A DNA stretch of 64,000 nt from Liolophura sinensis. Taxonomy: Eukaryota; Mollusca; Polyplacophora; Chitonida; Chitonidae. The DNA lies in the NCBI RefSeq assembly GCF_032854445.1, contig NC_088302.1:42570645-42634644 (forward strand), given 5' to 3'. The notes below the pieces were generated by a model, which made no database searches, was not told the DNA's origin, and saw only the letters and a program-made list of their open reading frames with translations. A program made the translations under genes and the position numbers. The stretch's first letter is position 1. Every line of letters starts with the position of its first letter. Positions 5,517 through 41,179 of the stretch are shown here, piece by piece.

Positions 5517-7668
5517 ATGAAGCTTACGCTGATAGCTGTTGTCCTGGTTTCCATGCTACTGGTCCAGGAGGCAGAATCAGGTTGGTTCCGGAAGGTCGGA
5601 AGAGCCATTCGCCGTGTCTGGACACCCCTTTGCTCACAGGCGTGTCCTAGATACTGCACGGGAGGAGTTGTATGCGAATTTGGCTGTGGGACTTTATGTG
5701 GCAAGAGAAAGAGGGCGGTAAGTTTACAACTGTAATAAGGATGGGCAGAATGGAGAGTAAAAGTAATGCATCAAGGACAGTGTGATATAATTGGCATATG
5801 GTCACAAAATACCAGCGTAAATATTCGCAGCACATACCCACCTTTGCACGAAGATTGAAGCAAGTTTAATTTTTTAAAAATGCAGTCAGTTAAATAGTAA
5901 TTTTTAGTCGTCAGTGATCTAGAATTGCTCAAAATTATCCGATTTATTCTCACGTTATATTATTTTTACATTTACTTATTTGATTGGTGTTTTACGCCGT
6001 ATTCAAGAATATTTCATTGATACGATGGCGGCCAGCATTATGATGAGATGAAACCGGACAGAGCCCGAGGGAAAAGCCACGGCCATCAGTTGTTTGCTGA
6101 GAGACCTTCCCACGTCCGGCCAGAGAGGAAGCCATCATGAACCGGACTTGAACTCACATGTACATGTAGACGTCCATGTAGACGGCTGCACTGGAATCTT
6201 GTATACATTAAACATCTCAACGTGTTTATACTATACGTGTTGACAGGCTTTCATAAACGGCACCCACCTAACTCGGCTGCCAAGAAACTTTGACTTTTAC
6301 GACCTGAACGATGATGACTTCGTCAGTCGGCAGGAAATTGCCACCACACTAGGCCACTCCGTGAACGAAGTTGGACTGATCGTGGCCTTCAACACTACTG
6401 ACATCGACCGTAAGTGTTAGAACTTAAGCCTATGTACGTTTGATGGCTTGGAGTTCAATGACGTTTTCAAAGTTATTTGTGATTAATACTGCTGTTTCAC
6501 TGAAATGCCATGCAGAAAACACAAGACAAGACACCTTGCCCATGGAGTCAGATTACCTAGACATGGGATCAATCAGCTCTTGGCATGTCCCTTCCTATTG
6601 AGTACCGGTCCTGAAGTACCAAATTTGCCGAGTTCAACGTTTTTGGTATTGCGAGCCGAGGCAGACCCTTGGTTGCCTTATTGCCGATTTGTTTAAGAAT
6701 GTTTTAGAGATTCAGACTACTGTAGAGTTCTATCGTCCATCGTTTTATCCTCAGCAATATTGTACCACATACGGATATGTTTGTATTATAAAGCTTTCAG
6801 TCTCTATACTGTGGCATTAATACACTCTCTAGATGAGATTGATCTTTTGCTTACTACTTGTTCATGGGTCATGAAGATAGGTTAAACACATTAATAAATT
6901 TGTATACGAAAAGAGCTATGAACCTTACATTGTACATTTCGCATTTAACATTTGCAGAAGACAACAAGCTGACTGAAGAGGAACTTTTTTCATCAAAGAC
7001 GTTTGTGTTTGGTGAGTTGGTTATTTGACTATAAGGTTAATATCAAACCCAGTTAATGTCTTTATGTGAATCTTGCACGCTAAAATATGTGTTTCCTCTT
7101 TGAACACATTTCTGTTACATTTTAGGAAGGTGCTCCGGTGTTTATTTATAAATGCTGTGTATGGTATCTGAAGAGACACGGATATTTCACCAAACATGCC
7201 AGTTGTTGACATATTAATGTTTGGGACATTTTCAATAAACGCAAATAGTCCAGTAAACATGACTGTGTTTACATTAAGTGTAAAAAGCCGATCAACAAAA
7301 CACTAAACACTTGTTTAGTGTGTACACTCCATTTTGGGATCAGTCCCCTAACTGGTGTGGCTAGAAACCACACTGGCTTTGAAGTTTCAGTGAAAACAGA
7401 TCCCTACACATGCGCATCTGCACATCTGTATTATTTTATGCACCATTTGAAGCTATTTCACTTGTGTTACAGCTACATCAGTTTCATGTATAGCCTGTAC
7501 GTTGATCATGAATGCAATTATAAAACATATTCTGCATGTATATACTTCTACTTTATATCCATCTTTTGATCTTTTGCAGTTGACGACCCGGTTGAGCCCG
7601 ACACCACACTTCCCCCGCTGACCACACTTCCCCCACTGACCACCGATGACACTGACCTTGAACACTGA
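5517..7668 (+). CDS. Cysteine-rich antimicrobial-type peptide precursor with EF-hand pro-region, gene 1
   Basis: Predicted secreted effector precursor of 168 aa. Coding exons are 5517-5717, 6247-6409, 6958-7011 and 7580-7668; all junctions are GT-AG and the frame closes exactly (201+163+54+86 nt plus stop). The ATG directly follows a TTTCAG acceptor, so a 5'UTR intron probably precedes it. Residues 1-21 form a signal peptide. Residues 22-38 are a cationic amphipathic helix starting GWFRKVGRAIRR. Residues 39-61 hold six Cys spaced x3,x3,x5,x3,x3. Residues 63-66 are KRKR, a likely proprotein-convertase site at the exon end. The next two exons encode two canonical 12-residue EF-hand loops (DLNDDDFVSRQE and DIDQDNKLTEEE). 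The last exon encodes an acidic tail with two TTLPPL units. The layout parallels mussel mytimycin precursors, but the Cys pattern differs. Antimicrobial activity is inferred. The AATAAA seen downstream of genes 2 and 3 reads AACAAA here (near 7825). Confidence 0.85.
5966..6160 (-). repeat. SINE family A in the first coding intron of gene 1
   Basis: Minus-strand SINE-A: the 3' end (gattggtgttttacgccgta) lies on the left and the tRNA-like head side on the right. The same insertion sits at the same intronic place in genes 2 (22428) and 3 (39530), so it predates the amplification. Confidence 0.85.
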
Positions 7669-10379
7669 ATGACTGGACCTCGATATGGTCGACCGCTCTA
7701 TCCGACCACATGCTGATTATGTTACTTCTGTTGACATAGCATGTATTGTCTTTCCAATATTTTAAAACTGCTGTAATTTGACGCCATTTTTATTTGGTGT
7801 TTCATGGGCAAATTCAAAAAAATGGAACAAAAATATTTTTACTGTCTTTATGGTTTTTTTTAATGACTTCAAAGTTTTCAGTGTTTACACATCACGTAAA
7901 TGCATGTTTTCAGCAGGAAAGGTTGCTGCGACAGTCACACAACTTAGATCTTTAGAAGAAAAGAGATGAATTCTGTCCGGAAAACAAAAGTTGAAGATGT
8001 TTTAAAATGTTTAAGATAATAAATTTGTGACTTGTATCGTGGTAATGAATATCTGTATAGCTTGAATTATACAAAAAATAAAAAGTTTCAGATGGAAGTG
8101 CTCACATAAACTCTTCATGTTTCTTGCTTGTTCATGCGATTCCCATCACCACCCCCACCCCACCCTAGCACTAAATATACACAGGAGGTATTGTATAGGA
8201 CAAAGTTATCACAGAAAAATATGTAAAAAAATTCTGTAAACTTTTGAAAGTCGAGAAGATGAAGTTCAGCACTGGAGCACTGACGACCAATTCACAATTG
8301 AGTAGCAATGTTTTAGATGCCCTTATGAACTTGGCCAATCACTAGTGCTCAAAGCGTTACGTGATAACTGGCTGTCACGTCAAAATCACTGTTGCCTCTC
8401 AACTTTCAGCGTCGTTTCTTGTAGTGGACAGACAGATATCGATGCAATAAATTGGATTTTGCGGTTATTTTAAGTGTTAAAATGATGCATTTTGAAGCAC
8501 ACATTTATGGGTAAAGAACTAAGAACGGCTGTCTGTGTCGCAAGGTGTACATGTAGGCAGGATACTGCAGTAACTTGTCAGGGTGAGCTGGCAAGAAATG
8601 TGCCTTGGGAGAGTCAATGCTTGAAGAAATATATTGTGACGTCGCATTATTTTTCCCTAGCAATGTTAAATTTATTACGAAAATATCTTTTAAAAAATAT
8701 GAATGAAAGGATCTCTTATTAGTCAGAAGGTCCAGCTATGTTCGGTAAATTCCCTAAAGTCGGTAGAGCCAGATAGGGCAAATACTTACAGCCATGCAGG
8801 ACGAGGACGTGCAGGGTCGCTAAAACACGGCGATTGTGTCCACGAACAACGCCCTGAACGAGCACCAAACTAAATGAAACATCGGCGATTTGAATACGGA
8901 ACAGAGCTAATACTCTATCGTTGGGAACAAGGCGTTTTTGTTTGCATTTTCTCATTGTCATATTGTTTAATACCGGTGGTACGGGAGGGCTCCCAGGTTT
9001 TGTGACATCACTCTAGATAGCTATAACATGACAAAATGGCGTCACCAAATGAGTATCTAGGTACGGACCATTGTTTATTATATATTTTGTTGATAAGCCG
9101 TGCAGAACATTTTCAATATTTTAGAACATTTCTGAAATACTACCTTATTAAATAATTTAGCTTTATTGGCTGACTTTATGTTCACTTTAAAGAAAAGTAA
9201 TAATTTAAGCTATTCCTGGTAAATACAGAAAATACGATTTGATCTCTACATAGCCTCTTTAAATGAGACGCTTTGTTGTAAATGCTGATGATAAAATTTG
9301 CATTTGTTTTTCTCGACAATCCGTCAATCTAACGAAGAGCTTTAAGTTGTGAATATGTTTATACGGCATGCTTAAAATGAGGGGATTTACGAGGAAATTA
9401 CTTTACGACCATTTACAATATTTAGGTGAATAAACTAGAACATACATTAGTGAGAGTCTCCTGGGTCATTGCGCCGCGCTGACACGCCAACCACCTCGAA
9501 TGGGCCCCCGAATTACTAAAAAATAATAAATTGATGCTTGTTTACCATTTTCTGCAGGTACAGGTTTATTTGCTCTCATTCCGTTTACAACATCTCCATG
9601 AATTTCAAGATTGAAAGACGTTAAGGAAAACAACAGAAATAAAGATTAACAGAACATCCATGAACAACCGTATCTACAAATACATCTGCACATTTTGAAA
9701 GATCTTTTTCTAAGAGATACATTCAGTTGGTCTTCGTGGACCCATATTTATTGGTGCATAAGTGTTAAATTATTTTTCACCCCATTATGCACTTTTTTTT
9801 ATCTCTTCATGTAATATCGCATGTGACTAAGCCTATAAATAATCCAATGTGATATTGCATGATATGATGAAAAATTAATTATACTGCATATGGCGAATTT
9901 AGTAAATGTAAGTACATGTATGTAAATCAACACAGATAGGGTCTGTAAAAGTTTTACACTAGAAGATGTATCCACAGAGAAGGTTTCATCATTCTTGGTG
10001 ATGTGTTGTTCTTGGCTTTAAGGATTATACAGTGTAAGATGGGAGTCTCTTGTTTTAGCAGTTTAATGGTTTCTGTTATCAAGTATAAAAATTGACCAAT
10101 TAGTGATGTCTCTTGTTCAAGCTCTTGTTGGTACGGTTTTGGCTTTGTGTCGAAAGGTTTGTCGTTTTGTTTTAGCTGCGTGGGGCTTTCCCTGCCTCTA
10201 CCCGGCTTTTCCACCACCTATGTAAATATTTCTCCCAATTTCAGCGAAATAGCCGTCAGTTTGTCATACCAATCAAGCTAACAAACACTTGGAAAGTCTT
10301 CTAACGTAAAAGATGTTACATAATGTACTAAATGTCTTTATTTTGTACGCAAAAGGCCTTTGAAGTGATCACCATTATC
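7669..10379. other. 3'UTR and tail of unit 1, no further gene
   Basis: The 3'UTR starts ctggacctcgatatggtcgacc and is conserved in all units. The rest is AT-rich sequence shared with units 2-4. Near 9450-9500 is a minus-strand SINE-A head remnant (ctcctgggtcattgcgccgcgctg). The open frames at 8492-8722, 8719-8961 and 9954-10217 are not maintained across units, so they are not called. Confidence 0.5.
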
Positions 10380-10505
10380 AAATAATGACAAATACAATAA
10401 AGACAATGAGCATAATGACAACGAGGATAATGCCAATAGGGACAACGGCAATGAAAAAAATGAGAATAACGACAATACGAATGAAGACAATGAGGATAAT
10501 TGATC
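10380..10505. repeat. Purine-rich AATGACAA-type simple repeat (unit 1)
   Basis: Imperfect short-period repeat of aatgacaa/aatgaga/aatgccaa words with strong strand asymmetry (very few T). Homologous tracts occur at 27150-27290 and 44205-44320. The apparent reading frames through it are by-products of composition. Confidence 0.7.
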
Positions 10506-10554
10506 TTTTTGTGCTAAACATGCATACATGTACAGAGTCTTTCAAGACGTCCCT

Positions 10555-10830
10555 GATCACTTTAGTGGCCTAATGGTCAGAGTGCCCGACTTAAAGTCGG
10601 GAATTTCGGGATCAAATCCGAGTCGAGTCAAACCAAAGACTTTAAAAAATGGTACTTGTTGCGTTCTCGCTTGGTTGATCCTGTGTCTTCGGCATGATGC
10701 TTCAGTGGCGACATGGAATCGCACTGTCACAAGAAGGCAGTATATTTACACACACCTAATGACTCCTCGTCGTCTGAAAATTTATTAAGTACGACGTTAA
10801 ACCCTAAACTTTCATTTCTTCATTCCAAGG
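10555..10830 (+). repeat. SINE family B, near full length (end of unit 1)
   Basis: tRNA-derived head with A-box-like TGGCCTAATGGTCAGAG and B-box-like GGGATCAAATCC, then the body (ccaaagactttaaaaaatgg) and the family 3' end gaaaatttattaagtacgacg with gttaaaccc. It sits between the unit-1 tail and the spacer. The same insertion occurs at 27345; the 44371 element shares only its left part. Confidence 0.8.
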
Positions 10831-11859
10831 CTTCTCCAAAGTTCTGCCTCCATTTAAAAACCTACAACACAGACCAGTGTCGCAGAAGTTACAAGTTCGT
10901 GAGTGTGGCGTAAATCACATATGCCCTATAAGCTGGTTTTGATTAATTATGACCTCACCCGAGGCATTGAGTTACTGGCGTCAAAACGGAGCCTATGCAG
11001 TTTAACATTATGAATGAGAAAAGTGCTCTAGTTTGATTTTCTTTGCAAGACTATGAGCCTCTCAACTCAATGTGACGAAAACACATGGATAAACTCTTGA
11101 GTGTATATTGAGTATTTCAAAAGAAATACATCATTTGTATAAGAACAACAACACGAAAATGGCACAAAATAATCATAAATAACTGTCGACTGCAGCTTAC
11201 CTGAACTAATGAGAGACAAGCGATCACCACTACCGAACATTCTACCTGGAGATTTATATGGACACAGAACTATGATTCTTCCTACATGTCTTTTGCATGT
11301 CTAACATTTTATTGTTAACGAAAACGAAATATAAGAAGAGTTTCATGGGGCTATTTTTTGATAAAGGGATACGTTTTTGACGATTGATTACAATAAGAAC
11401 AAACAAATCTCAGTGACCGATTGTCACAGATTTCTGGTATAAAAATGTACTCAATGTTGGCATAGAACTCATAGTTTATGAAACAGGTATATATTTTCCT
11501 GGAGTTTCTATGGTCTTACCTTAATTAGAAGCTATTTAGATATTTATTTCCGACCTAACTGATTCACGTCACTTCGCCATGATATTCAGCATTTTTGATT
11601 GGAGGCTTTAGAATCTAGGATTTTATTAATTACGAAAAGTGTTCATGTGTTATATTGGTATGGTTAGAAAGATCAGATTTCATAGCATCTGTGTTCTTCA
11701 AATTAATATTTAATACAGCACTAGTTGATAGAAATTAGTGGGTTTTTCTTTATGTTGGCATGGGGAAAAATTACGCTATTCTAGCCATATTGGTTTCGGC
11801 ATCATAGTAAATTATCGATGGAGCGTAGTAAGAGGCGAACGCTGCACAATGCACGTCAA

Positions 11860-11920
11860 CCAATCAAAATGGAGGACTTTTGGTGGTTAGCACCGCCTGC
11901 ATTGTTTACACCCTATAAAA
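11860..11920 (+). promoter_or_regulatory. Promoter-like CCAAT plus TATA pair (spacer 1)
   Basis: CCAAT at 11860-11864 and CTATAAAAGG around 11914-11920, about 50 bp apart, followed roughly 20 bp later by an ATG context. Spacer 2 keeps the pair (28650, 28701). Downstream lies a Lys/Gly/Ala-coding tract and a short segment faintly like the N-terminal part of histone H2A (GxRFxGRIAR-type), but stops and frame breaks follow. A decayed histone-type gene start is possible but unproven. Confidence 0.25.
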
Positions 11921-14223
11921 GGGCATCGATCATGGCGTCTGACTGATGGTCCTGGAGGTTTACGACAGTCAAGACAAGGGCAAAGGCAAAGGCAAGATCA
12001 AGGTAAAGGCAAGATTAAGAAAGGCACAAAGGTATTCGATTCCACGGGAGAATCGCTCGATCTGGCGGGAGATTTGCTATCTTCAGTATATTACGCATGA
12101 CGGATTTAGTGTTATACTGAAGGGACTGTGACTATATGAGTTAAAGAGTTACTTCTCTTACATTAAAACATACCTAAGGATTACGGTTAGGTAGAAATTC
12201 CAGCACATACACCTGTCGAAATATTTTTAAATTGCTAAAGAATATTCACCGTCTATAGCCGTGTCAACAAGCCTCCCAGAGTTATTCCCCCTGAAATTCT
12301 GTGTCGCAAATGACATTGCTGATTCTGAACGAATATTTGATGCTTTGACTGTATATATGTGAATAAATGGACTTCACTGTTTAGTGTTTGAACTGACAAA
12401 ACAAATCTTCAGATCTTCTGTTATGCTCTTCTTGTCGATTTACTGAAAGAAGTCGTAAGACTTGAGTTTTCCTCCAAGAGTTATCCCATAACAATACAGA
12501 CTGGGAATGCAATTGGCGTATTAAAAAGAATAGCAGCATTGAATTAATGATTGGGGTATTGAGAGTAAATCCATATTTGTGTAGTGGTGTCTCCAAATAC
12601 TTGAGGTAAATATACTCTACTCATACGCTACCAAAATATTATCTGGTGATAAGCAGAGCAAAACCTGTAAACTTAACCTCTAAAGATCATAAGACTGGGT
12701 TTTAAAGAAATATCCGCTACAATACCCAAGTGTAGAGCTTGTGTTGCCACGTGTCACTGACTAAAGTCAATTTTGATAACGAGACTGAGTGATTTCACAG
12801 ACAACTGAATATAAGCCACTTTCTAAAAGAAATGAACCATAGCATAGAAATTTAGTGTTTATGCAAGCTCACAATGCGCGCCATCATTCCCCCAAAGACA
12901 ACATTCCATGTCACTCATTAGAACGAATCACACCAGAGCCACACAACAAAATCGCTAAGAACGCTGTCACCATAATTACGTAAATCCAAAGTTATAAATA
13001 CTCTGCACTAATATATTTGAAATACACCATAAACTAGTATCCTGCAAAATGCAGATAAACTAGAAATATGGAGATGAAAATTTGGGTTATGCCAAACATA
13101 ATAACTTCAACAAGAAAAACATTTTATTCAAAACCATAATGCAAATTCATTTCAAAGCATTCCAAACGCATTAGAACCTGTGGGAATGGACAAGCACTTG
13201 GCAAACTTTTTGACATTTAATAACGGGTCTATCACAAACTGCATAAAAGCTCTGTGTAAACCTACATACAAGAGATCTTTAATTGTTCTGTTGTTTCATG
13301 GATAAATCTAGAATATCTAAACAAAAAAATGTTGATAGTTATTTTTAATGAGACTTGACTCACGTAATTTAAACCGGTGGAGATTATATTAGCTTAATGG
13401 AATATGGCCAGAGCCACACAAATTTTAGCTCGAAATTCAATCCAGGCAGGATTACTGATCGGTCGGAAAGCAGTCAAACAATCAGTCAAATAACAACAAT
13501 ACTTTGCCTTAAAACCAAGCAAAACACATGAATATTAACACAGCTAAAAGTTCGGCTGTGAATAATTATGTAAAATCGAGCAACCTGAAGTGTTTACAAT
13601 ATTCCAGCTCTGTGATTAAAAACGCTACCAACACTTTGTCACTCTCACTTTGACATTTTGACTGCAAACGATGTCAAGATTTAAACAGTTTCTCAATCTT
13701 TCTCGAGTGTAAGTCATTGTAAGAGATTTAATGACATTCACAAGATCAGACTTCTTAATTGCACTATGTAGATCAGTTGGGATATGAGCGGAAATCAAGG
13801 ACGAAAGGTGTTACACGGCATTTATGTCCCTAGTTGGAGGATTAAATGACTTGTGGTGTGATGACAATACAGCATTTTGAGTCACTCAAGACCAGTGACC
13901 TATAATGTAAGCAACGCAATTAACATCACTTTTTCAACTAATTCTACCTAAGCCATGGTGCTAGTGGGAGGGTAACTGCTTCTTTTAACAATTTACATTG
14001 TTTCATTTTGAAACAAAATCCTAACGCTTGTAAACTGACAAGAGGCTGTACTCACCGCTTTTCATTATATCCCAGACAACATTGTTTTCACAAAGTGTGT
14101 TTGTGAAAAATGTGTTTTTGGAACTTTATTGAGAGTCCACACTGACTGGAAAACTGTGCACAACAAAGAAATGCTGAAGTTAAACCTCTTTACTGGAATC
14201 GTGATCTCGAAACCTCCTTTTCC

Positions 14224-16095: not shown

Positions 16096-16373
16096 TTTTT
16101 TTTTTTTTTTTTTTTTTGATTGGTGTTTTACGCCGTACTCAAGAATATTTCACTTATACGACGGCGGCCAGTATTATGGTGGGTGGAAACCTGGCAGAGC
16201 CCGGGGGAAACCCACGACCATCCGCAGGTTGCTGGCAGACCTTCCCACTTACGGCCGGGGAGGAAGCCAGCATGAGCTGGACTTGAAATCACAGCGACCG
16301 CATTGGTGAGAGACTCCTGGGTCATTACGCTGCGCTAGCGCGCTAACCGACTGAGCCACGGAGGCCCCCCCCC
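16096..16373 (-). mobile_element. Full-length SINE family A insertion with 13-bp target-site duplication
   Basis: Minus-strand element: the T-run and 3' end lie on the left, and the tRNA-derived head (reverse complement shows the A-box-like TGGCTCAGTCGG and the B-box-like GAxTTCAAGTCC) lies on the right next to a C-run. It is flanked by perfect direct repeats gactgcacaatga at 16083-16095 and 16374-16386. Spacer 2 holds the empty site with a single copy at 32867-32879, so this insertion came after the duplication. Confidence 0.95.
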
Positions 16374-16426
16374 GACTGCACAATGACAATGTCACGTTAT
16401 GCTCGAACCTGTATGTTGAATACAGC

Positions 16427-16430
<4 letters not shown>

Positions 16431-16522
<92 letters not shown>

Positions 16523-16576
16523 AGATGTCTATATCTATATCTATATCTATCTATCTATCTATATATATATATATAT
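16431..16576. repeat. TA/TATC microsatellite (spacer 1)
   Basis: A long (TA)n run, a short TATC-rich middle and a second (TA)n run. The corresponding tract in spacer 2 is only about 22 bp (32925-32946). Open frames made of alternating Tyr and Ile here are artefacts. Confidence 0.95.
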
Positions 16577-16599
16577 AAAATCAAATCCCGTTTATTACT

Positions 16600-17290
16600 C
16601 TTGCGAGACGAATTTGCACAATCGTACCTAACAAAAAACTCCGGCAAATCAGATTTTCTGAATTAAGGACTTTTCTATTAATGAGGCATTATTAAAAAAA
16701 GTAATAGTCATCGGTTTTGACAAAGCAAACAAAATTCATATTTGAGTTTTAAGACCATAAAACCGACTTCCAAGACCGATACGATTTCATTTGTATTTCA
16801 ACTTCTTTCCCATTATCCACAACAACCAACCACTACTAGAATCAAACGATCGTCTCACTAAAACGTTTCATCAAACCAAAATTATAAACGGTAAGAGACA
16901 GGCTGCCAATCTTAAGAAACTTTTTAGAAAGGCTCGGTTTATTTCCAACTTAATAGAAACCAGTTATGCAACTTCTAGGTGTGCAGACCCACGATGCAAA
17001 TGCTGTGAAAATTTAATAACAAACGATAACGATAATATGAGCTGTAATTCTCAAAGTCTGCTCTATGACTTAACCTGCTCTAATTCTAGCAAATTCTTCA
17101 TAGGCGTTACCGGTGAATCATTCATAACACGCTAAGTTTACAGATTTTACACAATGGGCCCAAGTTCCACGTAATGCCTTTCTTTAAATTATCAGTGAAT
17201 AAAGCTCAAACCAGAGGAATCAAAGAAGATTACTTTATTCATGAATTTAAATCTGAACTTAACAGAGAAAACATCCGGAGATAAACTCTC
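16600..17290 (+). mobile_element. Penelope-like element remnant (linker and GIY-YIG region)
   Basis: The frame at 16791-17135 has the order of blocks typical of the C-terminal half of Penelope-like retroelement proteins: a PLL...RLTKTF segment, NLKKLFRKARF (the 'NL+..L.+AKF' block), a Cys motif RCADPRCKCCENLI, then LLYDLTCSNSSKFFIGVTGESFITR, which matches the start of a GIY-YIG nuclease (usual form YVGETGRS). A frameshift near 17130 leads into NGPKFHVMPFF and an EDYFIHEFKSELNRE-like tail. The reverse transcriptase part is missing or unrecognisable, so the element is dead. Confidence 0.65.
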
Positions 17291-17985: not shown

Positions 17986-18261
17986 TGTCACTTCCTCACT
18001 TAGTCACAAAGAAAGCAAAACCAAGAAGACAAATTGTGTTTAGTAAAAATCTTGTTAAAACTGAGCTGGATAAATCAAGTATTTACAGGTTCCTGTAAAT
18101 TAAAAGTAAAGTAAACGTAAAATAAAAAGAAACATCCTTCAAAGGAAACGAACGCAGTTCGCTTCACAGTAAAAACATCAATGATCAATTTAAAATATAC
18201 ATTTCTTCAATTAAACAGTTTAAATCTAATTTATCTTGAAATTGTGGGCTTATACCAAATA

Positions 18262-19610
18262 GATTCCAAGAGTGTACTTGTTTATTGGTTTGTACAACAT
18301 GTCTACCTGATTACATTAGTGTACCTGGTTTACTGGTTTATGTAACATGTCTACCTAATTACAATAGCGTACCTGGTTTACTGGTTTATATAACATGCCT
18401 GCCTGATTCCCCCAGTCTACCTGGTTTACTGGTTTATACAACATGCCTACCTGATTACCTGGTTTACTGGTTTATACAACCTGTCTACCTGATTCCCCCA
18501 GTGTACCTGGTTTACTGATTTACAACATGCCTATCTGATTCCCTTAGTGTACCTGGTTTACTGATTTACACCATGTCTACCTGGTTCCCCCAGTGTACCT
18601 GGTTTACTGGTTTATACAACATGTCTACCTGATTACATTAGTGTACCTGGTTCACTGGTTTATGTAACATTCCTGTCTGATTACCTTTGTGCACTTGGTT
18701 TACTGATTTACAACATGCGTACCTGATTCCCCCAGTCTACCTGGTTTACTGGTTTATACAACATGTCTACCTGATTACATTAGTGTACCTGGTTTACTGG
18801 TTTATGTAACACTCCTGTCTATTTACCTTTGTGCACTTGGTCTACTGATTTACAACATGCGTACCTGGTTCCCCCAGTGTACCTGGTTTACTGGTTTATA
18901 CAACATGCCTGCCTGATTCTCCCAGCGCACCTGGTTTATTTATTTACAACATGCCTACCTGGCTCCCCCATTGTACCTGGTTTACTGGCTAATACAACCT
19001 GCCTGCTTGATTTTAAAAGTGTGCCTGGTTTATTGATTTACAACATGCCTACCTGATCCCCCAGTGTACATGGTTTACTGGTTTCTACAACCTGCTTACC
19101 TGATTGTAAAAGTGTGCCTGGTTTACTGATTTACAACATGCTTGCATGATTCCCCCAGTGTACCTGGTTTACTGGTTTATACAACCTGCCTACCTGACTG
19201 CCCCAGTGTACTTGGTTTACTAGTTTATACAACCTGCCTACTTGATTCCCCCAATGTACCTGGTTTACTGGTTTATATAACATCTCTCCCTGATTGTAAA
19301 AGTGTACCTGATTTGCTGATTTACAACATACCTACTTGATTCCCCCAGTGTACATAGCTTACTGGTTTGTACAACATGCTTACCTAATTTTAAAGGTCTA
19401 CATGGTTTACTGGTTACCTACCTGATTCCCTTAGTGTACCTGGTTTACTGATATACAGGATGCCTACCCGATTACCCAAGTGTATCTGGTTTACTGCTTT
19501 TCAAACTGCCTCTATGTACTTCATCTCCCCTTCCCCAGTCGATTTACTGATTTACACGACTTACCTACTTTATTCCCTCAGTGTGCCTGGTTTACTCATT
19601 TATATCACAC
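18262..19610. repeat. 48-bp minisatellite of unit 2
   Basis: Roughly 28 imperfect copies of the 48-bp unit. Variants alternate between cctgattccccca, cctgattacattag and cctgattgtaaaag endings. Because 48 is a multiple of 3, forward frames give repeats like VPGLLVYTTCLPDSPS and the reverse strand gives MLYKPVNQVHWGNQVG-like frames. Both are interrupted irregularly, with no splice or start context. Confidence 0.95.
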
Positions 19611-19629
19611 CTACACGAAGCACGACGTT

Positions 19630-21975: not shown

Positions 21976-24077
21976 ATGAAGCTTACGCTGATAGCTGTTG
22001 CCCTAGTTTCCTTGCTACTCGTCCACGAGACAGAATCAGGTTGGATTCGTTTTAGGCGAATCGGAAGAGCCATTGCCCGTGCCTGGAAACCCGCTTGCTC
22101 ATTGGCATGTCCTAGAATCTGCACGAAAGGATTTTTATGCAAGTTTGGCTGTGGGGCTTTGTGTGGCAAGAGGAAGAGGGCGGTAAGATCCATACTCCTA
22201 CAACTGTAATAGGAAGAGCAGAATGGAGAGTAAAACTTATGCATCGAGGACAGTGTCATATACTTGGCATAATAAGACTTAAGCAGGATTAAGTTTTAAA
22301 AAAAATGCAGTGGGGTAAATAGTAATTTATTAGTCGTCAGTGATCAAGAATTGCTCAAAATTATCCGACTATTATTCTCACGACAGACACATCCTTACAT
22401 AGCATTAGCATCTCGTTATATTATTTATACATTTACTTATTTGATTGGTGTTTTATGCCGTATTCAAGAATATTTCACATATACGATGGCAGCCAGCATT
22501 ATGATGAGATCAAACCGCACAGAGCTCGGGGATAACCCACGATCATCGGCTCGTTGCTGAGAGAAAGTCCCACCTACGGCCAGACAGGAAGCCGCCATGA
22601 ACTAGACTTGAACTCACATGTACATATAGACGTACATGTAGACGGCTGCACTAAAATCTTGTACACATCAAACAACTCTACGTGTTTATACCACCCGTGT
22701 TGACAGGCTTTCAAACAGGGCGTCCACGTCACTCGGCTGCCAAGGAACTTTGACTTTTACGACCTGAACGATGATGACTTCGTCAGTCTTCAGGAAATTG
22801 CAACCACACTAGGCCACTCTGTGAACGAAGTTGATCTGATCGTCGCCTTCAACGCTACTGATACCAACCGTAAGTATTACAACTGTAGCGTATATACGTT
22901 TGATGGATTGGAATTCAATGGTGTTTTAAAAAAATTGGTGTCATTTCACGAAGGTATTTCCGAATGATTAATAGTGCCGCTTCACTTAAACGCCATACGG
23001 AAGACACAAGACAACACACCTTGCCCATGGAGTCAGATTACCTTGACATGGGATCAATCAGCTCTTGGCATATCCCTTCCCATTGAGTACCGGTGCTGAA
23101 GTACCAAATTTGCCGAGTTCAACGTTTTTGGTCTTGCTAGGCAAGGCGGACCCTTTACCACTTGACTGCCTTAGAGCCGTTGTGTTTAAGAATGTTTTAG
23201 AGATTCAGACTACTGTACAGTTCTTTCAACCTCAGCAATATTGTACCACACATGGGTATGTTTGTATTTTGAACCTTTCAGTTTCTACGCGGTGGCCTTA
23301 ATCCACTCTCTAGATGAGATTGAACTTTTGCTCGCTGCGTATTCATGGGTCATGAAGATAAGTTAAAAACATTATTAAAATTGTATACGAAGACAGCTTT
23401 GGAACTTTCCTTACATAACATTTCTCATTTTAACATTTGCAGAAGACGGCAAGCTGACTGAAGAGGAACTGTTATCATCAAAAGTGTTTGTGTTTGGTGA
23501 GTTGGTTATTTGACTGTGAGGTTAATATCAAACCCAGTTAATGTCAGCTTTATGTGAATCTTGCACGCTAAAATTTCTGTTACAGTTTAGGAAGGTGTTC
23601 TGGTGTTCATTTATAAAAGCTGTGTATGGTAGCTGAAGAGACATGGATATTTCAGCAAACATGCAAGATGCTTGCATATTTATGTTTGGGACATTTTCAA
23701 TCAACGCAAATAGTCCAGTAAGCATGACTGTGTTTGCATTATGTGTTAAAAACCGATCAACGAAACACTTGTGCTTAGTGTGTACACTCCATTTTGGGAT
23801 CAGTCCCCAAACTGGTGCGGCTAGAAAACACACTGGCTTTGGAGTTTCAGTGAAAACACATCACTACAGATGCGAATCTGCACATCTGTATCGTTTTATG
23901 CAGCATTTGAGGCTATTTCACTCGTGTTACAGTATATACTTTTACTTTAAATCCATCTTTTGATGTTTTGCAGCTGATGGCCCGGTTGAGCCCGACACCA
24001 CACTTCCCCCACTGACCACACTTCCCCTGACCACACTTCCCCCACTGACCACTAATGATACTGTCACTGAACCCTGA
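21976..24077 (+). CDS. Cysteine-rich antimicrobial-type peptide precursor with EF-hand pro-region, gene 2
   Basis: 175-aa precursor. Exons are 21976-22182, 22707-22869, 23443-23496 and 23974-24077, all GT-AG, with a TTTCAG acceptor directly before the ATG. It has the same domain order as gene 1: signal peptide (1-21), amphipathic helix starting GWIRFRRIGRAIARAW (two residues longer than in gene 1), six Cys at 41, 45, 49, 55, 59 and 63, KRKR at 65-68, EF loops DLNDDDFVSLQE and DTNQDGKLTEEE, and a tail with three TTLP-type units ending in an acidic stretch. Mature-region differences from gene 1 are dense (about 14 of 45 positions by eye) and mostly raise positive charge; the first EF exon differs at 9 of 54. 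The Cys spacing would suit a helical hairpin with nested disulfides; that, and membrane or antimicrobial action, are inference. Confidence 0.85.
22428..22620 (-). repeat. SINE family A in the first coding intron of gene 2
   Basis: Same insertion as in gene 1 (5966) and gene 3 (39530), recognisable by gattggtgttttatgccgta and the agccagcattatgatgagat block. Confidence 0.85.
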
Positions 24078-32879: not shown

Positions 32880-32924
32880 CAATGTCACGTTATGCTCGAA
32901 CCTGTATGTTGAATACAGCATGTG

Positions 32925-32946
32925 TATATATATATATATATATATA
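32925..32946. repeat. Short TA microsatellite (spacer 2)
   Basis: (TA)n of about 22 bp, far shorter than the counterpart at 16431-16576. Confidence 0.9.
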
Positions 32947-32959
32947 AAATCAAGTCCCG

Positions 32960-33660
32960 TTTATTACTCTTGCGAGACGAATTTGCACAATCGTACCTAA
33001 CAAAAAAACCCGGGAAATCAGATTTTCTGAATTAAGAACTTTTCTATTAATGAGGCATTATTAAAAAAAGTAATAGTCATCGGTTTTGACAAAGCAAACA
33101 AAATTCACATTTGAGTTTTAAGACCATAAAACCGACTTCCAAGACCGATACGATTTCATTTGTATTTCAACTTCTTTCCCATTATCCACAACAACCAACC
33201 ACTACTAGAATCAAACGATCGTCTCACTAAAACGTTTCATCAAATCAAAATTATAAACGGTAAGAGACAGGCTGCCAATCTTAAGAAACTTTTTAGAAAG
33301 GCTCGGTTTATTTCCAACTTAATAGAAACCAGTTATACAACTTCTAGGTGTGGAGACCCACGATGCAAATGCTGTGAAAATTTAATAACAAACGATAACG
33401 ATAATATGAACTGTAATTCTCAAAATCTACTCTATGACTTAACCTGCTCTAATTCTAGCAAATTCTTCATAGGCGTTACCGGTGAATCATTCATAACACG
33501 CTAAGTTTACAGATTTTACACAATGGGCCCAAGTTCCACGTAATGCCTTTCTTTAAATTATCAGTGAATAAAGCTCAAACCAGAGGAATCAAAGAAGATT
33601 ACTTTATTCATGAATTTAAATCTGAACTTAACAGAGAAAACATCCGGAGATAAACTCTCC
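32960..33660 (+). mobile_element. Penelope-like element remnant (spacer 2)
   Basis: Counterpart of 16600-17290. The frame at 33160-33504 carries NLKKLFRKARF, a Cys motif RCGDPRCKCCENLI (the RCG form is closer to the family's usual CGxPRCKxC) and the FIGVTGESFITR GIY-YIG start, followed by the same frameshift. Truncated and dead. Confidence 0.65.
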
Positions 33661-34189
33661 GCATGGATAATCCCATGGGCAAGTTCGAACTTTATAATAT
33701 TATATGTAATTTCCCCATGGTTTAATCCAACTGCATGTATACATAGCTGTCGCAAGATATGTTGAAATAAAAAAGTTCTAAAGAATCGCCATGATACACA
33801 GTAAAACTAGTCAGCTAAATCAACAAGTTGAGTTGGTCATGTTTCTTCTACAGTGTATATATATAGTGTGTATACATATATATACATATATACATTATAG
33901 ATTTAGATTTGCATTGTTCACTGTGGCCCAAATAAAACTGTAATAACAAAATAAAGTTCCGAGAACTTACTTTCCATTTTGTGATAAAATTGTCTAATGT
34001 GGACTTGGAAAGTTTCATATTTATTTCAAGTGCATCTATTGGACAAACGATCTGCTGGCCTATGTTAGAATGTTCAAGTCGTTGACCAGTGAGGTAGCCG
34101 CCTCGAATCCAACTTCCGCTTTATCGGTCATTGATTGGGGTTGGGACGTTTGTCAGGTATACTAGATTCTGCCTGGCTGCCGTCTAATG

Positions 34190-34360
34190 GTTAGAGGGTC
34201 CGCTTTGATACCGGGATATCCGGGATGAAAACCGGCTCGCGCCATACCAAAGACTTTAAAAATAGTAGGCCCTATTTGTGGCTGCCTTGTTCCATGCTCA
34301 GCACTGAGAGATTAGATTAAAAAAATAGGACAGATTGACCCGGTGTCAGTAAAATGTCAC
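34190..34360 (+). repeat. SINE family B, 3'-truncated (head of unit 3)
   Basis: Counterpart of 17815-17985 with the same truncation. Confidence 0.75.
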
Positions 34361-34637
34361 TTCTCACTTAGTCACAAAGAAAGCAAAACCAAGAAGACAA
34401 ATTGTGTTTAGTAAAAATCTTGTTAAAACTGAGCTGGATAAATCACGTATTTACAGGTTCCTGTAAATTAAAAGTAAAGTAAACGTAAAATAAAAAGAAA
34501 CATCCTTCAAAGGAAACGGACGCAGCTCGCTTCACAGTAAAAACATCAATGATCAATTTAAAACATACATTTCTTCAATTAAACAGTTTAAGTCTAATTT
34601 ATCTTGAAATGGTGGGCTTATACCAAATAGATTCCAA

Positions 34638-36735
34638 GAGTGTACTTGTTTATTGGTTTGTACAACATGTCTACCTGATTACATTAGTGTACCTGGTTTA
34701 CTGGTTTATGTAACATGTCTACCTAATTACAATAGTGTACCTGGTTTACTGGTTTATATAACATGCCTGCCTGATTCCCCCAGTCTACCTGGTTTACTGG
34801 TTTAATACAACATGCCTACCTGATTACCTGGTTTACTGGTTTATACAACCTGTCTACCTGATTCCCCCAGTGTACCTGGTTTACTGATTTACAACATGCC
34901 TATCTGATACCCTTAGTGTACCTGGTTTACTGATTTACAACATGTCTACCTGGTTCCCCCAGTGTACCTGGTTCACTGGTTTATACAACATGTCTACCTG
35001 ATTACATTAGTGTACCTGGTTCACTGGTTTATGTAACATTCCTGTCTGATTACCTTTGTGCACTTGGTTTACTGATTTACAACATGCGTACCTGATTCCC
35101 CCAGTTTACCTGGTTTACTGGTTTATACAACCTGTCTACCTGATTCCCCCAGTGTACCTGGTTTACTGATTTACAACATGCCTATCTGATTCCCTTAGTG
35201 TACCTGGTTTACTGATTTACAACATGTCTACCTGGTTCCCCCAGTGTACCTGGTTTACTGGTTTATACAACATGTCTACCTGATTACATTAGTGTACCTG
35301 GTTCACTGGTTTATGTAACATTCCTGTCTGATTACCTTTGTGCACTTGGTTTACTGATTTACAACATGCGTACCTGATTCCCCCAGTGTACCTGGTTTAC
35401 TGGTTTATACAACATGCCTGCCTGATTCTCCCAGCGCACCTGGTTTATTTATTTACAACATGCCTACCTGGCTCCCCCATTGTACCTGGTTTACTGGCTA
35501 ATACAACCTGCCTACTTGATTTTAAAAGTGTGCCTGGTTTATTGATTTACAACTTGCCTACCTGATCCCCCAGTGTACATGGTTTACTGGTTTCTACAAC
35601 CTGCTTACCTGATTGTAAAAGTGTGCCTGGTTTACTGATTTCCAACATGCTTGCATGATTCCCCCAGTGTGCCTGGTTTACTGGTTTATACAATCTGCCT
35701 ACCTGACTGCCCCAGTGTACCTGGTTTACTGGTTTATACAACCTGCCTACCTGATTCCCCCAGTGTACTTGGTTTACTGGTTTATACAACCTGCCTACTT
35801 GATTCCCCCAATGTACCTGGTTTACTGGTTTATACAACATGTCTACCTGATTACATTAGTGTACCTGGTTTACTGTTTTATGTAACACTCCTGTCTGTTT
35901 ACCTTTGTGCACTTGATTTACTGATTTACAACATGCGTACCTGATTCCCCCAGTGTACCTGGTTTACTGGTTTATACAACATGCCTGCCTGATTCTCCCA
36001 GCGCACCTGGTTTATTTATTTACAACATGCCTACCTGGCTCCCCCATTGTACCTGGTTTACTGGCTAATACAACCTGCCTACTTGATTTTAAAAGTGTGC
36101 CTGGTTTATTGATTTACAACTTGCCTACCTGATCCCCCAGTGTACATGGTTTACTTGTTTCTACAACCTGCTTACCTGATTGTGAAAGTGTGCCTGGGTT
36201 ACTGATTTACAACATGCTTGCATGATTCCCCCAGTGTACCTGGTTTACTGGTTTATACAATCTGCCTACCTGACTGCCCCAGTGTACCTGGTTTACTGGT
36301 TTATACAACCTGCCTACCTGATTCCCCCAGTGTACTTGGTTTACTGGTTTATACAACCTGCCTACTTGATTCCCCCAATGTACCTGGTTTACTGGTTTAT
36401 ATAACATCCCTCCCTGATTGTAAAAGTGTACCTGATTTTGCTGATTTACAACATACCTACTTGATTCCCCCAGTGTACATAGCTTACTGGTTTGTACAAC
36501 ATGCTTACCTAATTTTAAAGGTCTACATGGTTTACTGGATACCTACCTGATTCCCTTAGTGTACCTGGTTTACTGATATACAGGATGCCTACCCGATTAC
36601 CCAAGTGTATCTGGTTTACTGCTTTTCAAACTGCCTCTATGTACTTCATCTCCCCTTCCCCAATCGATTTACTGATTTACACGACTTACCTACTTTATTC
36701 CCTCAGTGTGCCTGGTTTACTCATTTATATCACAC
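34638..36735. repeat. 48-bp minisatellite of unit 3 with a 567-bp higher-order duplication
   Basis: Same repeat as in unit 2 but longer. A block starting near 35338 repeats from near 35905 with an offset of about 567 bp, including matching variant units (gcgcacctggtttatttatt and catgcttgcatgattccccc). This accounts for most of the extra length over unit 2. Confidence 0.9.
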
Positions 36736-36745
36736 CTACACGAAG

Positions 36746-36792
36746 CACGACGTTAAACCTCAAGTACTCACTCACTCACTCACTCACTCACA
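36746..36792. repeat. SINE-like 3' end with (ACTC)n tail (unit 3)
   Basis: cgacgttaaacctcaagt followed by about six ACTC repeats; counterpart of 19630-19683 with fewer repeats. Confidence 0.8.
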
Positions 36793-37437
36793 CCTTCACG
36801 ATCCACCAACCTCTGAATTACTGGTGTAAAGGATGACAAGGCTGATCCACAGAGCTGTAGACCAGAGCATGCATACTTAATTTACACAGTGTAACGCCTC
36901 TGAGTGAAGTCATAATTATTTGTATGCTGTCTGTGGATATTAGTCCGTAAAACACAATTAGTACGTGAACCGAAATATGATGTGACTGTCATCACAACTG
37001 TCCCTCATTCCACACATGACGCCAGGTGATACACAGCATAAGCAAACTTCACACTTAAACTGAATTAGACTACAAACACAATACAGAGTTAAGGTTTACG
37101 TTGGCGGCAGTTCACTTGTCGATTGCATGCCCGTCCAGATCGTTTCCTGGTCAGTACCTACCTTGGGCAAATAGATGGAACCTAAAATTTGCTCCAGTTG
37201 ACATTTACCTCGCCATTTCTCCGAAAATCTTTTTGAAGAAAGCGGATGTCTCGGCGAATAAACACTGATGAGGAAGAACCGGAGAGTGACGCGATGTGTA
37301 CATAAGGAATGCAAGCAATTCCAAATGTATATATAACGTCCTAAAAAGCCTCTTCTGAATCAGTTGCCCTGGTGGTATCCCTCTACATCCTAATCCAAAC
37401 GTCAAGGTAATGTGTCTTACCTTATTTTTCTTTTACA

Positions 37438-37476
<39 letters not shown>

Positions 37477-38828
37477 TCCGTGTAGCTTCTAAGATTTGCG
37501 TGTAATAGCCTGTATCCGTTATTGTAAATCACTGATCAATCACTACAGTTGGGTTTTGGATAAATCACCGGGCGCCTTGTTGATTGCTTTTATGTTATGT
37601 CATGATGTCTTTACGGCGAGATACAGAAAATTTTATTGTAATAATAACAATGAGGTATTTGCATGGAAAAAAAACACGCGAAGCTCAGAAAAAGGAAACA
37701 AAAAGAACTAAAAAAAAATACAGCCGACAGTAAATCTGATAGAGGCAACAAGACAGAACCAAGAAAACTAAAGAACATAGCCCACAGAAAAATGACCAGA
37801 GACCAGAGGAACGGAGAAACCCCAGAAAAACGGACAAAGAAGACAGGACATGGGCGAGAGAAAGCCTTACAACGCTTAGAGAAGTGGTATCAAAAGACCA
37901 GACATCATATGGCAGAGCCCGTGGAATACCGGACAGCCTGTAGATCAGGACCCAAGATGTATAGTTATTTGTATCAAAGATTCCAACTCAGGGATCAACG
38001 GCTAGCCGTTTGTTTGTATAAAACATTACGTTTCTCAGTCAGCGATGGCTCTTGATACAAATCCTTAAAACCGCATGTTTGTCTCCATTGTGCACTAGTG
38101 GTGATGATTTAACAATACACGTAACAGTAGCTTTTTATTTCTCGCTGTGCAATTTACGATGTGACGTATTACACAAAGGCACTTGCTGGCTTCCTATCCG
38201 GCCGTAAGTGGGAAGGTCTTCAAGCAAGCGTCGGATGGTCGTGAGTTTCCCCCGGTTCTTCCCGGTCTCCACCCCCCATAATGCTGGCCGCCGTATTATA
38301 AGTGAAATATTCTTGATTACTCTGTAAAACACCAATCAAATAAATAAACATTATATTCTTCTTGGGGCAATACAATTGGCTTTAAATTGCTGTTTTCCTA
38401 AGTCCGGAGCTACATACACATACTGTCTGTCACCTTTCTTGCCAAAGTGTTAGTTCAAAGCTGCTTCCTTGATTTTCACGTAAACGAGTGACTCTTTGAT
38501 TCCTTTCCGTGCAATTTCTTCATTATTTGAAATGAAGCTTCAAATGTTTGCCTTTTGTTTTCGTGCTCCTGATAGCCCTTTGTCGTCGCCCTGTTTCTTT
38601 GTTCCGCAATTCCTGTAGATGTTGTACTTCTTTGTTTGTTTGTTTTTTTCTGTTTTACGTGTAACTAGTCGATACTGATAGCTGTTGTTCTGTTTTCGAT
38701 TTTTCTGTTTTTATACTTTAAGTCCAACCCATTAGTCAGTGCCCACATTTCGGTATTACTAGATACTATTGGCCATTAGTATTAGTTACCGGTTTATTTC
38801 ACCCGTGATGCCACAGCTGATGTCGTTT
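36793..38828. other. Conserved upstream region of unit 3, no gene supported
   Basis: Counterpart of 19684-21725, with the AT microsatellite near 37440-37472 longer than in unit 2. The purine-rich open frame of unit 2 is split here by a small indel. Confidence 0.5.
38180..38346 (+). repeat. SINE family A, 5'-truncated (upstream of gene 3)
   Basis: Counterpart of 21076-21243, same truncation and flanks. Confidence 0.85.
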
Positions 38829-38835
38829 TATATAA
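38829..38835 (+). promoter_or_regulatory. Candidate TATA box of peptide gene 3
   Basis: TATATAA, same context as in unit 2, 250 bp before the coding ATG. Confidence 0.5.
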
Positions 38836-39078
38836 CTAGTCGATCTGTTCCGAACGATTTTCGTTCAATAGCTGCTGCCCTGGTTAATTACAATGTTAGT
38901 GGTTAATTATTACTCTAAAGTTAGCCGTCACGATGCTGGCATTTTCCATGTTTGTCGCCAAGTCTTATCTTGTTATTTTTATTGTTATATTCAACTGTTT
39001 GAGTGTTTAGGATGAGTCTTCGAGTAATAACTTGTGGGCGTTTTGTTTTTCTCATACTGTTTGTTGATTATATTTCAG

Positions 39079-41179
39079 ATGAAGCTTACGCTGATAGCTG
39101 TTGCCCTAGTTTCCTTGCTACTCGTCCACGAGACAGAATCAGGTTGGATTCGTTTTAGGCGAATCGGAAGAGCCATTGCCCGTGCCTGGAAACCCGCTTG
39201 CTCATTGACATGTCCTAGAATCTGCACGAAAGGATTTTTATGCAAGTTTGGCTGTGGGGCTTTGTGTGGCAAGAGGAAGAGGGCGGTAAGATCCATACTC
39301 CTACAACTGTAATAGGAAGAGCAGAATGGAGAGTAAAACTTATGCATCGAGGACAGGGTCATATACTTGGCATAATAAGACTTAAGCAGGATTAAGTTTT
39401 AAAAAAATGCAGTGGGGTAAAAAGTAATTTATTAGTCGTCAGTGATCAAGAATTGCTCAAAATTATCCGACTATTATTCTCACGACAGACACATCCTTAC
39501 ATAGCATTAGCATCTCGTTATATTATTTATACATTTACTTATTTGATTGGTGTTTTATGCCGTATTCAAGAATATTTCACATATACGATGGCAGCCAGCA
39601 TTATGATGAGATCAAACCGCACAGAGCTCGGGGATAACCCACGATCATCGGCTCGTTGCTGAGAGAAAGTCCCACCTACGGCCAGACAGGAAGCCGCCAT
39701 GAACTAGACTTGAACTCACATGTACATATAGACGTACATGTAGACGGCTGCACTAAAATCTTGTACACATCAAACAACTCTACGTGTTTATACCACCCGT
39801 GTTGACAGGCTTTCAAACAGGGCGTCCACGTCACTCGGCTGCCAAGGAACTTTGACTTTTACGACCTGAGCGATGATGACTTCGTCAGTCTTCAGGAAAT
39901 TGCAACCACACTAGGCCACTCTGTGAACGAAGTTGATCTGATCGTCGCCTTCAACGCTACTGATACCAACCGTAAGTATTACAACTGTAGCGTATATACG
40001 TTTGATGGATTGGAATTCAATGGTGTTTTAAAAAAATTGGTGTCATTTCACGAAGGTATTTCCGAATGATTAATAGTGCCGCTTCACTTAAACGCCATAC
40101 GGAAGACACAAGACAACACACCTTGCCCATTGAGTCAAATTACCTTGACATGGGATCAATCAGCTCTTGGCATATCCCTTCCCATTGAGTACCGGTGCTG
40201 AAGTACCAAATTTGCCGAGTTCAACGTTTTTGGTCTTGCTAGGCAAGGCGGACCCTTTACCACTTGACTGCCTTAGAGCCGTTGTGTTTAAGAATGTTTT
40301 AGAGATTCAGACTACTGTACAGTTCTTTCAACCTCAGCAGTATTGTACCACACATGGGTATGTTTGTATTTTGAACCTTTCAGTTTCTACACGGTGGTCT
40401 TAATCCACTCTCTAGATGAGATTGAACTTTTGCTCGCTGCGTATTCATGGGTCATGAAGATAAGTTAAAAACATTATTAAAATTGTATACGAAGACAGCT
40501 TTGGAACTTTCCTTACATAACATTTCTCATTTTAACATTTGCAGAAGACGGCAAGCTGACTGAAGAGGAACTGTTATCATCAAAGGTGTTTGTGTTTGGT
40601 GAGTTGGTTATTTGACTGTGAGGTTAATATCAAACCCAGTTAATGTCAGCTTTATGTGAATCTTGCACGCTAAAATTTCTGTTACAGTTTAGGAAGGTGT
40701 TCTGGTGTTCATTTATAAAAGCTGTGTATGGTAGCTGAAGAGACATGGATATTTCAGCAAACATGCAAGATGCTTGCATATTTATGTTTGGGACATTTTC
40801 AATCAAAGCAAATAGTCCAGTAAGCATGACTGTGTTTGCATTATGTGTTAAAAACCGATCAACGAAACACTTGTGCTTAGTGTGTACACTCCATTTTGGG
40901 ATCAGTCCCCAAACTGGTGCGGCTAGAAAACACACTGGCTTTGGAGTTTCAGTGAAAACACATCACTACACATGCGAATCTGCACATCTGTATCGTTTTA
41001 TGCAGCATTTGAGGCTATTTCACTCGTGTTACAGTATATACTTTTACTTTAAATCCATCTTTTGATGTTTTGCAGCTGATGGCCCGGTTGAGCCCGACAC
41101 CACACTTCCCCCACTGACCACACTTCCCCTGACCACACTTCCCCCACTGACCACTAATGATACTGTCACTGAACCCTGA
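39079..41179 (+). CDS. Cysteine-rich antimicrobial-type peptide precursor with EF-hand pro-region, gene 3
   Basis: 175-aa precursor. Exons are 39079-39285, 39809-39971, 40545-40598 and 41076-41179, all GT-AG. It differs from gene 2 by three coding substitutions that I could find: A44T between the first two Cys, Asn to Ser at position 3 of the first EF loop (DLSDDDFVSLQE), and one synonymous change (AAA/AAG Lys) in the third exon. Ser is tolerated at loop position 3, so calcium binding is probably kept. Signal peptide, helix, six Cys, KRKR site and TTLP tail are as in gene 2. The intact frame and splice sites suggest a functional recent duplicate. The role as a secreted immune peptide is inferred from architecture. 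Confidence 0.85.
39530..39722 (-). repeat. SINE family A in the first coding intron of gene 3
   Basis: Same insertion as in genes 1 and 2. Confidence 0.85.

Follow-up and report, generated by a model that had tools for sequence, protein, structure and literature searches.

Three tandem genes joining a cysteine-rich peptide to an EF-hand pair

The 64,000-nucleotide stretch of the chiton Liolophura sinensis genome analysed here (contig NC_088302.1, positions 42,570,645 to 42,634,644 of the forward strand; called the window below) contains three genes, g1, g2 and g3, whose predicted products join a six-cysteine peptide to a pair of EF-hands. The models were built from GT-AG introns, with four coding exons and three introns each, and span window positions 5517-7668 (g1), 21976-24077 (g2) and 39079-41179 (g3):

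g1 exon 1, 5517-5717, + strand: signal peptide (residues 1-21, assigned by eye), mature GWFRKVGRAIRRVWTP and Cys core; donor GTAAGT, phase 0
g1 Cys core, + strand: Cys 39, 43, 47, 53, 57 and 61 at nucleotides 5631-5699, then Gly and the KRKR site at nucleotides 5700-5714
g1 exon 2, 6247-6409, + strand: EF-hand 1 (loop DLNDDDFVSRQE, nucleotides 6301-6336) and beginning of EF loop 2
g1 exon 3, 6958-7011, + strand: remainder of EF loop 2 (DID|QDNKLTEEE)
g1 exon 4, 7580-7668, + strand: acidic Thr/Pro/Leu tail and stop
g2 exon 1, 21976-22182, + strand: signal peptide, GWIRFRRIGRAIARAWKPA (basic amphipathic arm), Cys core and GKRKR
g2 exon 2, 22707-22869, + strand: EF-hand 1 and beginning of EF loop 2
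g2 exon 3, 23443-23496, + strand: remainder of EF loop 2 (DTN|QDGKLTEEE)
g2 exon 4, 23974-24077, + strand: acidic Thr/Pro/Leu tail and stop
g3 exon 1, 39079-39285, + strand: signal peptide, cationic arm, Cys core and GKRKR (protein P0001, as for the other g3 exons)
g3 exon 2, 39809-39971, + strand: EF-hand 1 and beginning of EF loop 2
g3 exon 3, 40545-40598, + strand: remainder of EF loop 2
g3 exon 4, 41076-41179, + strand: acidic Thr/Pro/Leu tail and stop

The predicted proteins are 168 (g1) and 175 (g2 and g3) residues long. In all three the Cys spacing is C-x3-C-x3-C-x5-C-x3-C-x3-C; GKRKR comes next, and two canonical EF loops and the acidic Thr/Pro/Leu tail complete the protein, as the initial annotation had described. 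Intron phases are 0, 1 and 1 in every gene; exon 2 holds EF-hand 1 and runs three residues into EF loop 2, where intron 2 splits the loop. The g3 protein is letter-for-letter the NCBI protein P0001 of L. sinensis, named 'EF-hand calcium-binding domain-containing protein 1-like', and together with the GT-AG models this match bears out the claim of three intact tandem genes. When the central loop was allowed to vary from 3 to 14 residues, the Cys pattern occurred three times in the six frames of the window, precisely at g1-g3, and was found in none of 20 first-order Markov shuffles of the same sequence.

A multi-copy family on three scaffolds

With the g2 protein as query, 65 matches of exon size were found in the whole genome (609,464,459 bases, 632 contigs) at E <= 10; this search scores the best candidates only, so the family counts are lower bounds. 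A published chiton assembly has 609.5 Mb in 632 scaffolds, according to the available part of PMC11068029, and the species name first given to it, L. japonica, has since been corrected to L. sinensis (PMC12441733, likewise available in part). Eleven Cys exons form one tandem cluster of ~188 kb at C8:42.42-42.61 Mb, three of them within the window, and diverged groups were found at C8:40.8, C8:51.6-51.7, C8:20.5, C11:14.1 and C1:16.09-16.14 Mb. Of the 36 loci examined, which lie on three scaffolds, 27 share one exon plan in which an intact Cys exon precedes an EF exon; the family is tandem, as annotated, but larger than three genes. The nine other loci lack an intact pair within the fragments retrieved, and comprise EF exons or EF relics alone (C8:40.823, C8:51.611, C8:51.664 and C8:20.535), a damaged exon 1 frame (C8:51.680) and further damaged loci (C1:16.099, C1:16.104, C1:16.135 and C1:16.138).

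Six NCBI proteins unite the Cys and EF halves, and six of our models match them across the exons compared:

P0001: g3
P0002: C8:42.560; the NCBI model begins later
P0003: C8:40.840; the exon-1 letters of our model were copied from P0003
P0005: C1:16.110
P0006: C1:16.090
P0007: C8:20.546; the NCBI model begins later

Both the gene models and these proteins uphold the earlier view that the Cys-rich cationic peptide, polybasic site, EF pair and acidic tail belong to a single precursor. Exon 1 and exon 2 distances among the 27 genes are strongly correlated (Mantel r 0.94, equalled in 0 of 2000 permutations), as expected when both halves are inherited together. These genes are a real, well-defined multi-copy family. 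It is apparently undescribed, as judged within searches of open-licence PubMed Central and of protein databases; no paper on this chiton family was found among the open-licence PubMed Central literature, which was mostly judged without full text.

The protein searches covered ~5.8 billion sequences and were seeded on exact 5-residue words, and one of them scored the best 7993 candidates only. They returned P0001-P0008, of which P0001, P0002, P0003, P0005, P0006 and P0007 are named as L. sinensis proteins. P0004 is a chance match (E 9). P0008 is an exon-1 read-through with the source tag 'lgn' and 74% identity over 77 residues to the C1:16.09 member, possibly another chiton's or an unplaced copy; viral contigs searched with P0008 gave no relative.

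Several observations concern how these loci are arranged. In the window the genes sit in tandem repeat units, with 16.5 and 17.1 kb from one gene start to the next. A fourth, shortened unit is found at window 44879-50940 (repeat families D5, D6 and D9-D14), in which tblastn (E <= 10) detected no Cys or EF exon when queried with the g1-g3 proteins. Every unit contains a minisatellite with 48- and 94-base periods (2185-2560, 18245-19479, 34613-36534 and 45037-46063), which may promote unequal duplication. The predicted protein of g1 (window 5517-7011) is the same over exons 1-3 as that of the gene at C8:42468841 (42.468 Mb), 107 kb away, an identity that points to recent duplication or conversion. 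Decayed members stand beside intact ones at C1:16099000-16138300 and C8:51.61-51.68 Mb, a birth-and-death pattern.

Constant and variable features of the precursors

The similarity search matched exon 1 at 32 loci, with the full six-Cys pattern in 28 and visible damage in the remaining 4. Because the exon finder selected for Cys runs with basic residues close by, for the leading Asp in loop 1 and for the split-loop junction, the following counts among 27 genes are partly by construction: a polybasic convertase-type site after the Cys core in 27/27 (R-x-[KR]-R in 15, KRKR in 9, KKKR in 2 and KRER in 1), a Gly just before it, and with it possible amidation, in 22/27, and calcium ligands retained in EF loop 1 of 27/27 and EF loop 2 of 21/21 genes with a modelled exon 3 (the six genes with no such model were excluded). 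These features are seen independently of the exon finder in the six NCBI proteins. In a 13-member alignment, the six Cys, the Tyr-Asp opening EF loop 1 and a few further positions are invariant. The family pattern is C-x3-C-x3-C-x(n)-C-x3-C-x3-C, where n is 5, 7, 11, 12 or 13; the central loop is the only Cys spacing that varies, as would follow from a hairpin in which the two Cys runs lie opposite each other, one on either arm.

Strong amphipathicity of the N-terminal arm, with maximum moments of 1.08-1.22 per 11 residues, was measured in 9 of the 11 C8:42 genes and in all 3 C8:51.63 genes; in the other two C8:42 genes the arm is weak (0.63). With signal cleavage placed by eye, the C8:20.5 Mb peptides have one residue ahead of Cys 1 and the C11 peptides just a few. 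The cationic helix of the initial annotation therefore stands as an arm of the window genes but not as a family constant, which is the twin C-x3-C-x3-C core plus the EF pair.

Single EF exons score under the Pfam EF-hand cut-offs. At full length, P0001 passes EF-hand_6 (27.3 vs 25 bits) and just misses EF-hand_7 (29.0 vs 30), and P0003 reaches 35.0 bits with EF-hand_7, above the cut-off of 30. Twelve Pfam families were matched by the 13 members at E <= 0.1; BRICHOS was absent from these, and the matches named after antimicrobial peptides (AMPs), Myticin-prepro (E 0.044) and LEAP-2 (E 0.067), came from 1/13 members each. A scan of two exon-1 frames at E <= 1 gave no Pfam family for the Cys part, and BRICHOS, defensin or any other Pfam family was rejected for the mature part on this basis. 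The single PDB match to the mature part (E 0.88) is meaningless and was discarded as well. The possibility that these are plain calmodulin-like genes was also dismissed: the genome's strongest EF-hand_7 matches lie at C6:9.2-9.45 Mb, away from the family. Two of them (L001 and L007, at C6:9.22 and 9.45 Mb) read as calmodulin-like exons, apparently unrelated; a neighbouring Cys exon was not specifically sought there.

AlphaFold2 models, computed from ten alignment rows, give the EF pair block means of the predicted local distance difference test (pLDDT) of 75-89 in P0001 and 76-93 in P0003. A Foldseek search with the P0001 model returned 635 matches at E <= 10 and 0 at E <= 0.001, and the best 50 of the 635 look like EF-hand proteins or EF-hand-built sensors.

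Sequence change, charge and the proposed function

Within the 11-gene cluster, the ratio of nonsynonymous to synonymous divergence (dN/dS), summed over 55 non-independent pairs, is 1.01 in the mature part, 0.36 in the signal, 0.25 in the cleavage site, 0.53 in EF exon 2 and 0.45 in EF exon 3. The mature part has a dN of 0.22, roughly double the mean distance in intron 1 (0.116); as mature dS is also raised (0.218 vs 0.116), the divergence is not pure amino-acid selection, and we claim faster change, with positive selection unproven. In four non-overlapping cluster pairs, hand-picked from six displayed, the ratio of replacement to silent changes was 31:8 in the mature part and 18:17 in the EF exons (Fisher p 0.014). 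The mature part of the window cluster changes faster than the signal and the pro-region.

Mature charge spans +1 to +17, and the first 54 residues of the pro-region carry -4.9 to -14.9. The pro-region is more acidic where the mature peptide is more basic, with a Spearman coefficient of -0.62 over 26 genes, a sample for which the p value overstates independence because the genes are related, and of -0.79 (p 0.036) over seven subfamily means, a small sample. The net charge of seven complete precursors lies between -7.0 and +0.1. The charge relation fits the earlier proposal that the pro-region keeps the peptide inactive; the shielding itself we infer.

The reading we prefer, to which we assign a probability of roughly 0.6, is that the genes encode secreted, protease-released host-defence peptides forming a disulfide-stapled hairpin, which a calcium-folded EF-hand pro-domain would shield during synthesis, in a role like that of BRICHOS or cathelin pro-domains. 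The signal peptide would direct the precursor into the endoplasmic reticulum, where the mature part may form a hairpin with nested bridges Cys1-6, 2-5 and 3-4, a pairing suggested by the two C-x3-C-x3-C runs that flank a loop whose length varies. The acidic EF-hand pair would fold round calcium, which is plentiful in the secretory lumen, and, in cis, neutralise and chaperone the cationic peptide. A proprotein convertase could then cut at the polybasic site, with C-terminal amidation of the peptide where a Gly precedes it, and the released peptide would attack microbial membranes. Such membrane action is suggested by the charge, by an N-terminal arm that is amphipathic in most subfamilies and by the faster change of the mature part. 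Calcium would serve the pro-domain as a permanent structural cofactor and not as a switch. Seawater, marine hemolymph and the secretory lumen are all rich in it, so canonical EF-hands should stay loaded, and a calcium-change trigger is therefore unlikely. Release by a change in calcium, which the initial annotation had considered, is thus not supported, and cutting of the basic site by a protease is more likely to be the trigger.

Besides the raised mature dS, the relatedness of the genes and the small number of subfamilies, several points weigh against this reading. Five of the 27 genes, those on C1, have no Gly ahead of the basic site, and 12/27 sites lack the Arg that a strict furin rule would demand four residues ahead of the cleavage. 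The C8:20.5 Mb peptides are almost neutral (+1) and ill-suited to membrane activity, and the signal cleavage positions that delimit the mature peptides were assigned by eye. The structure prediction that had been suggested as a check gave a well-modelled EF pair but a mature part of low pLDDT (block means 41-47 in P0001 and 46-58 in P0003) and of differing fold, with helices in P0001 and strands in P0003. Both folds would allow the nested bridges. A strand hairpin is weakly favoured because many members have a Pro in their second Cys run and because the Chou-Fasman means over the Cys runs, by group 1.03-1.12 for strand and 0.86-0.96 for helix, lean the same way.

A further point against the host-defence reading is a molluscan precedent for an EF-hand region on a neuropeptide precursor: the snail HCS2 precursor of giant interneurons reportedly has one. 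The chiton peptides could, like HCS2, be signalling peptides (neuropeptides or hormones), with the EF-hand tail serving in sorting or being co-released as a calcium-binding peptide. Gly and polybasic sites fit amidated hormones, amidation and basic sites being hallmarks of neuropeptides. The likeness, judged by description, lies in the EF-hand region of the precursor; the HCS2 peptides are said to be short, linear and without a Cys hairpin. Tandem arrays, fast mature change and high charge are usual for defence peptides and unusual for hormones, and an 11-gene array whose mature part changes fastest beside a conserved signal and EF region, with charges of up to +17, makes the signalling explanation unlikely.

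The fixed Cys framework, the varying residues between the Cys and the multi-copy clusters would also suit venom- or toxin-like secretory peptides of a gland or of mucus, diversified for deterrence. Chitons are grazers and are not known to have a venom apparatus, and the high positive charge and the amphipathic arm of most subfamilies indicate microbial membranes as the target, so we regard a toxin role as very unlikely. Much the same holds for biomineralisation or mucus proteins, in which the EF-hands and the acidic Thr/Pro/Leu tail would handle shell-plate calcium and the basic peptide would bind acidic matrix. Such a role would agree with the EF-hand and tail themselves and with weak matches of 9/13 members to the SPARC extracellular calcium-binding domain (best E 0.00034). 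It seems hardly probable given the conserved polybasic site between the halves, the Cys hairpin and the fast mature evolution, and the SPARC scores of P0003, P0005 and P0002 fall under the Pfam cut-off.

The host-defence reading has a special form in which the EF pair is a calmodulin-like clamp: its calcium form would open a hydrophobic groove that holds the arm and would keep the peptide from acting on membranes until released by cleavage or acid. Melittin and mastoparan are bound by calmodulin in this manner, calmodulin and troponin C lead the best 60 of the 530 PDB sequences that the family profile matched, and the arm is strongly amphipathic in most genes of the C8:42 group (9/11) and throughout C8:51.63 (3/3). 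We consider the clamp rather doubtful, as the C8:20.5 and C11 members keep the EF pair without a long arm, two of the 11 C8:42 genes have a weak arm, and the AlphaFold outputs do not establish docking. A wider proposal, which we put forward tentatively, is that the calcium-loaded EF pair acts in cis as both calmodulin-like clamp and charge shield of a membrane-active hairpin with three bridges. It would add to the folded AMP pro-domains of vertebrates (cathelin) and polychaetes (BRICHOS), and the family would then form a diversified multi-copy arsenal of a chiton, independent of mussel mytimycins or sharing an ancestor with them.

Only for a small number of pro-domains is it known how animals store peptides that might lyse the animal's own membranes. 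An EF-hand pair is an uncommon partner for a peptide of this type, and one whose acidity tracks peptide basicity makes the idea of a calcium-folded pro-domain testable. Chitons may also be a source of a three-bridge scaffold, and the mytimycin EF-hand, the function of which is called unknown in the accessible part of PMC8004829, gains a comparison outside bivalves.

Relation to known peptide families

The nearest known architecture is that of the mytimycins, antifungal peptides of Mytilida with a signal peptide, a cationic Cys-rich peptide and an acidic EF-hand extension after a dibasic site, encoded by a variable multigene family (PMC8004829, in the part available). The chiton precursors share the signal peptide, the cationic Cys-rich peptide and the acidic EF-hand C-terminal extension. 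According to the same excerpt, mytimycins have 10-14 Cys, 10 of which form a constant backbone, and a 75-residue extension with an EF-hand motif, whereas all 27 chiton models have six Cys and a pair in which both EF loops are canonical, followed by the Thr/Pro/Leu tail. The two public mytimycin genes have three exons and two introns in the available part of PMC3210125; the chiton window genes have four coding exons and three introns, one inside EF loop 2. Membership of the mytimycins is rejected on the count of Cys and on gene structure, both compared by description rather than by sequence, and the word-seeded protein searches returned no mytimycin. The likeness to mytimycins and the distinctness from them noted in the initial annotation are therefore both retained.

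Turgencins A and B of the ascidian Synoicum turgens have six Cys bridged 1-6, 2-5 and 3-4 and an amidated C-terminus, and inhibit bacteria (PMC7024374, seen in part). The chiton peptides resemble them in being cationic with six separated Cys; the same pairing would be compatible with their spacing, and the Gly present before the basic site in 22/27 would permit amidation. Turgencin B has the spacing C-x3-C-x4-C-x7-C-x2-C-x3-C in the same text, in contrast to C-x3-C-x3-C-x(5-13)-C-x3-C-x3-C in the chiton. Turgencins are chordate peptides, and the available portion of PMC7024374 mentions no EF-hand precursor.

C-x3-C spacing and nested pairing are also features of beta-hairpin AMPs, which the chiton peptides would resemble as cationic, disulfide-bridged hairpins. 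Beta-hairpin AMPs have 17-21 residues and two bridges; the chiton peptides have room for three bridges, reach 51 residues and in most subfamilies carry an extra cationic arm. Tachyplesins, polyphemusins and arenicin-3 are disulfide-bridged cationic hairpins, the tachyplesins being amidated (PMC4410394, available in part). The BRICHOS-AMP precursors of polychaetes (arenicin, alvinellacin and nicomicin) have a folded acidic pro-domain held to be a chaperone, according to the parts available of PMC6265681 and PMC13001179. The chiton precursors likewise join an acidic pro-domain, predicted to be folded, to a cationic peptide. Unlike BRICHOS-AMPs, they have no BRICHOS match and place the mature peptide first, whereas that of nicomicin comes last. 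Searches of open-licence PubMed Central for chiton AMPs or for EF-hand AMP precursors other than mytimycins gave no lead; a big-defensin transcript is the sole chiton defence peptide met in the available parts of PMC7203481 and PMC6425005.

Elsewhere in the window, positions 16347-16631 form a long AT-rich, dinucleotide-like run that reads as Tyr-Ile repeats.

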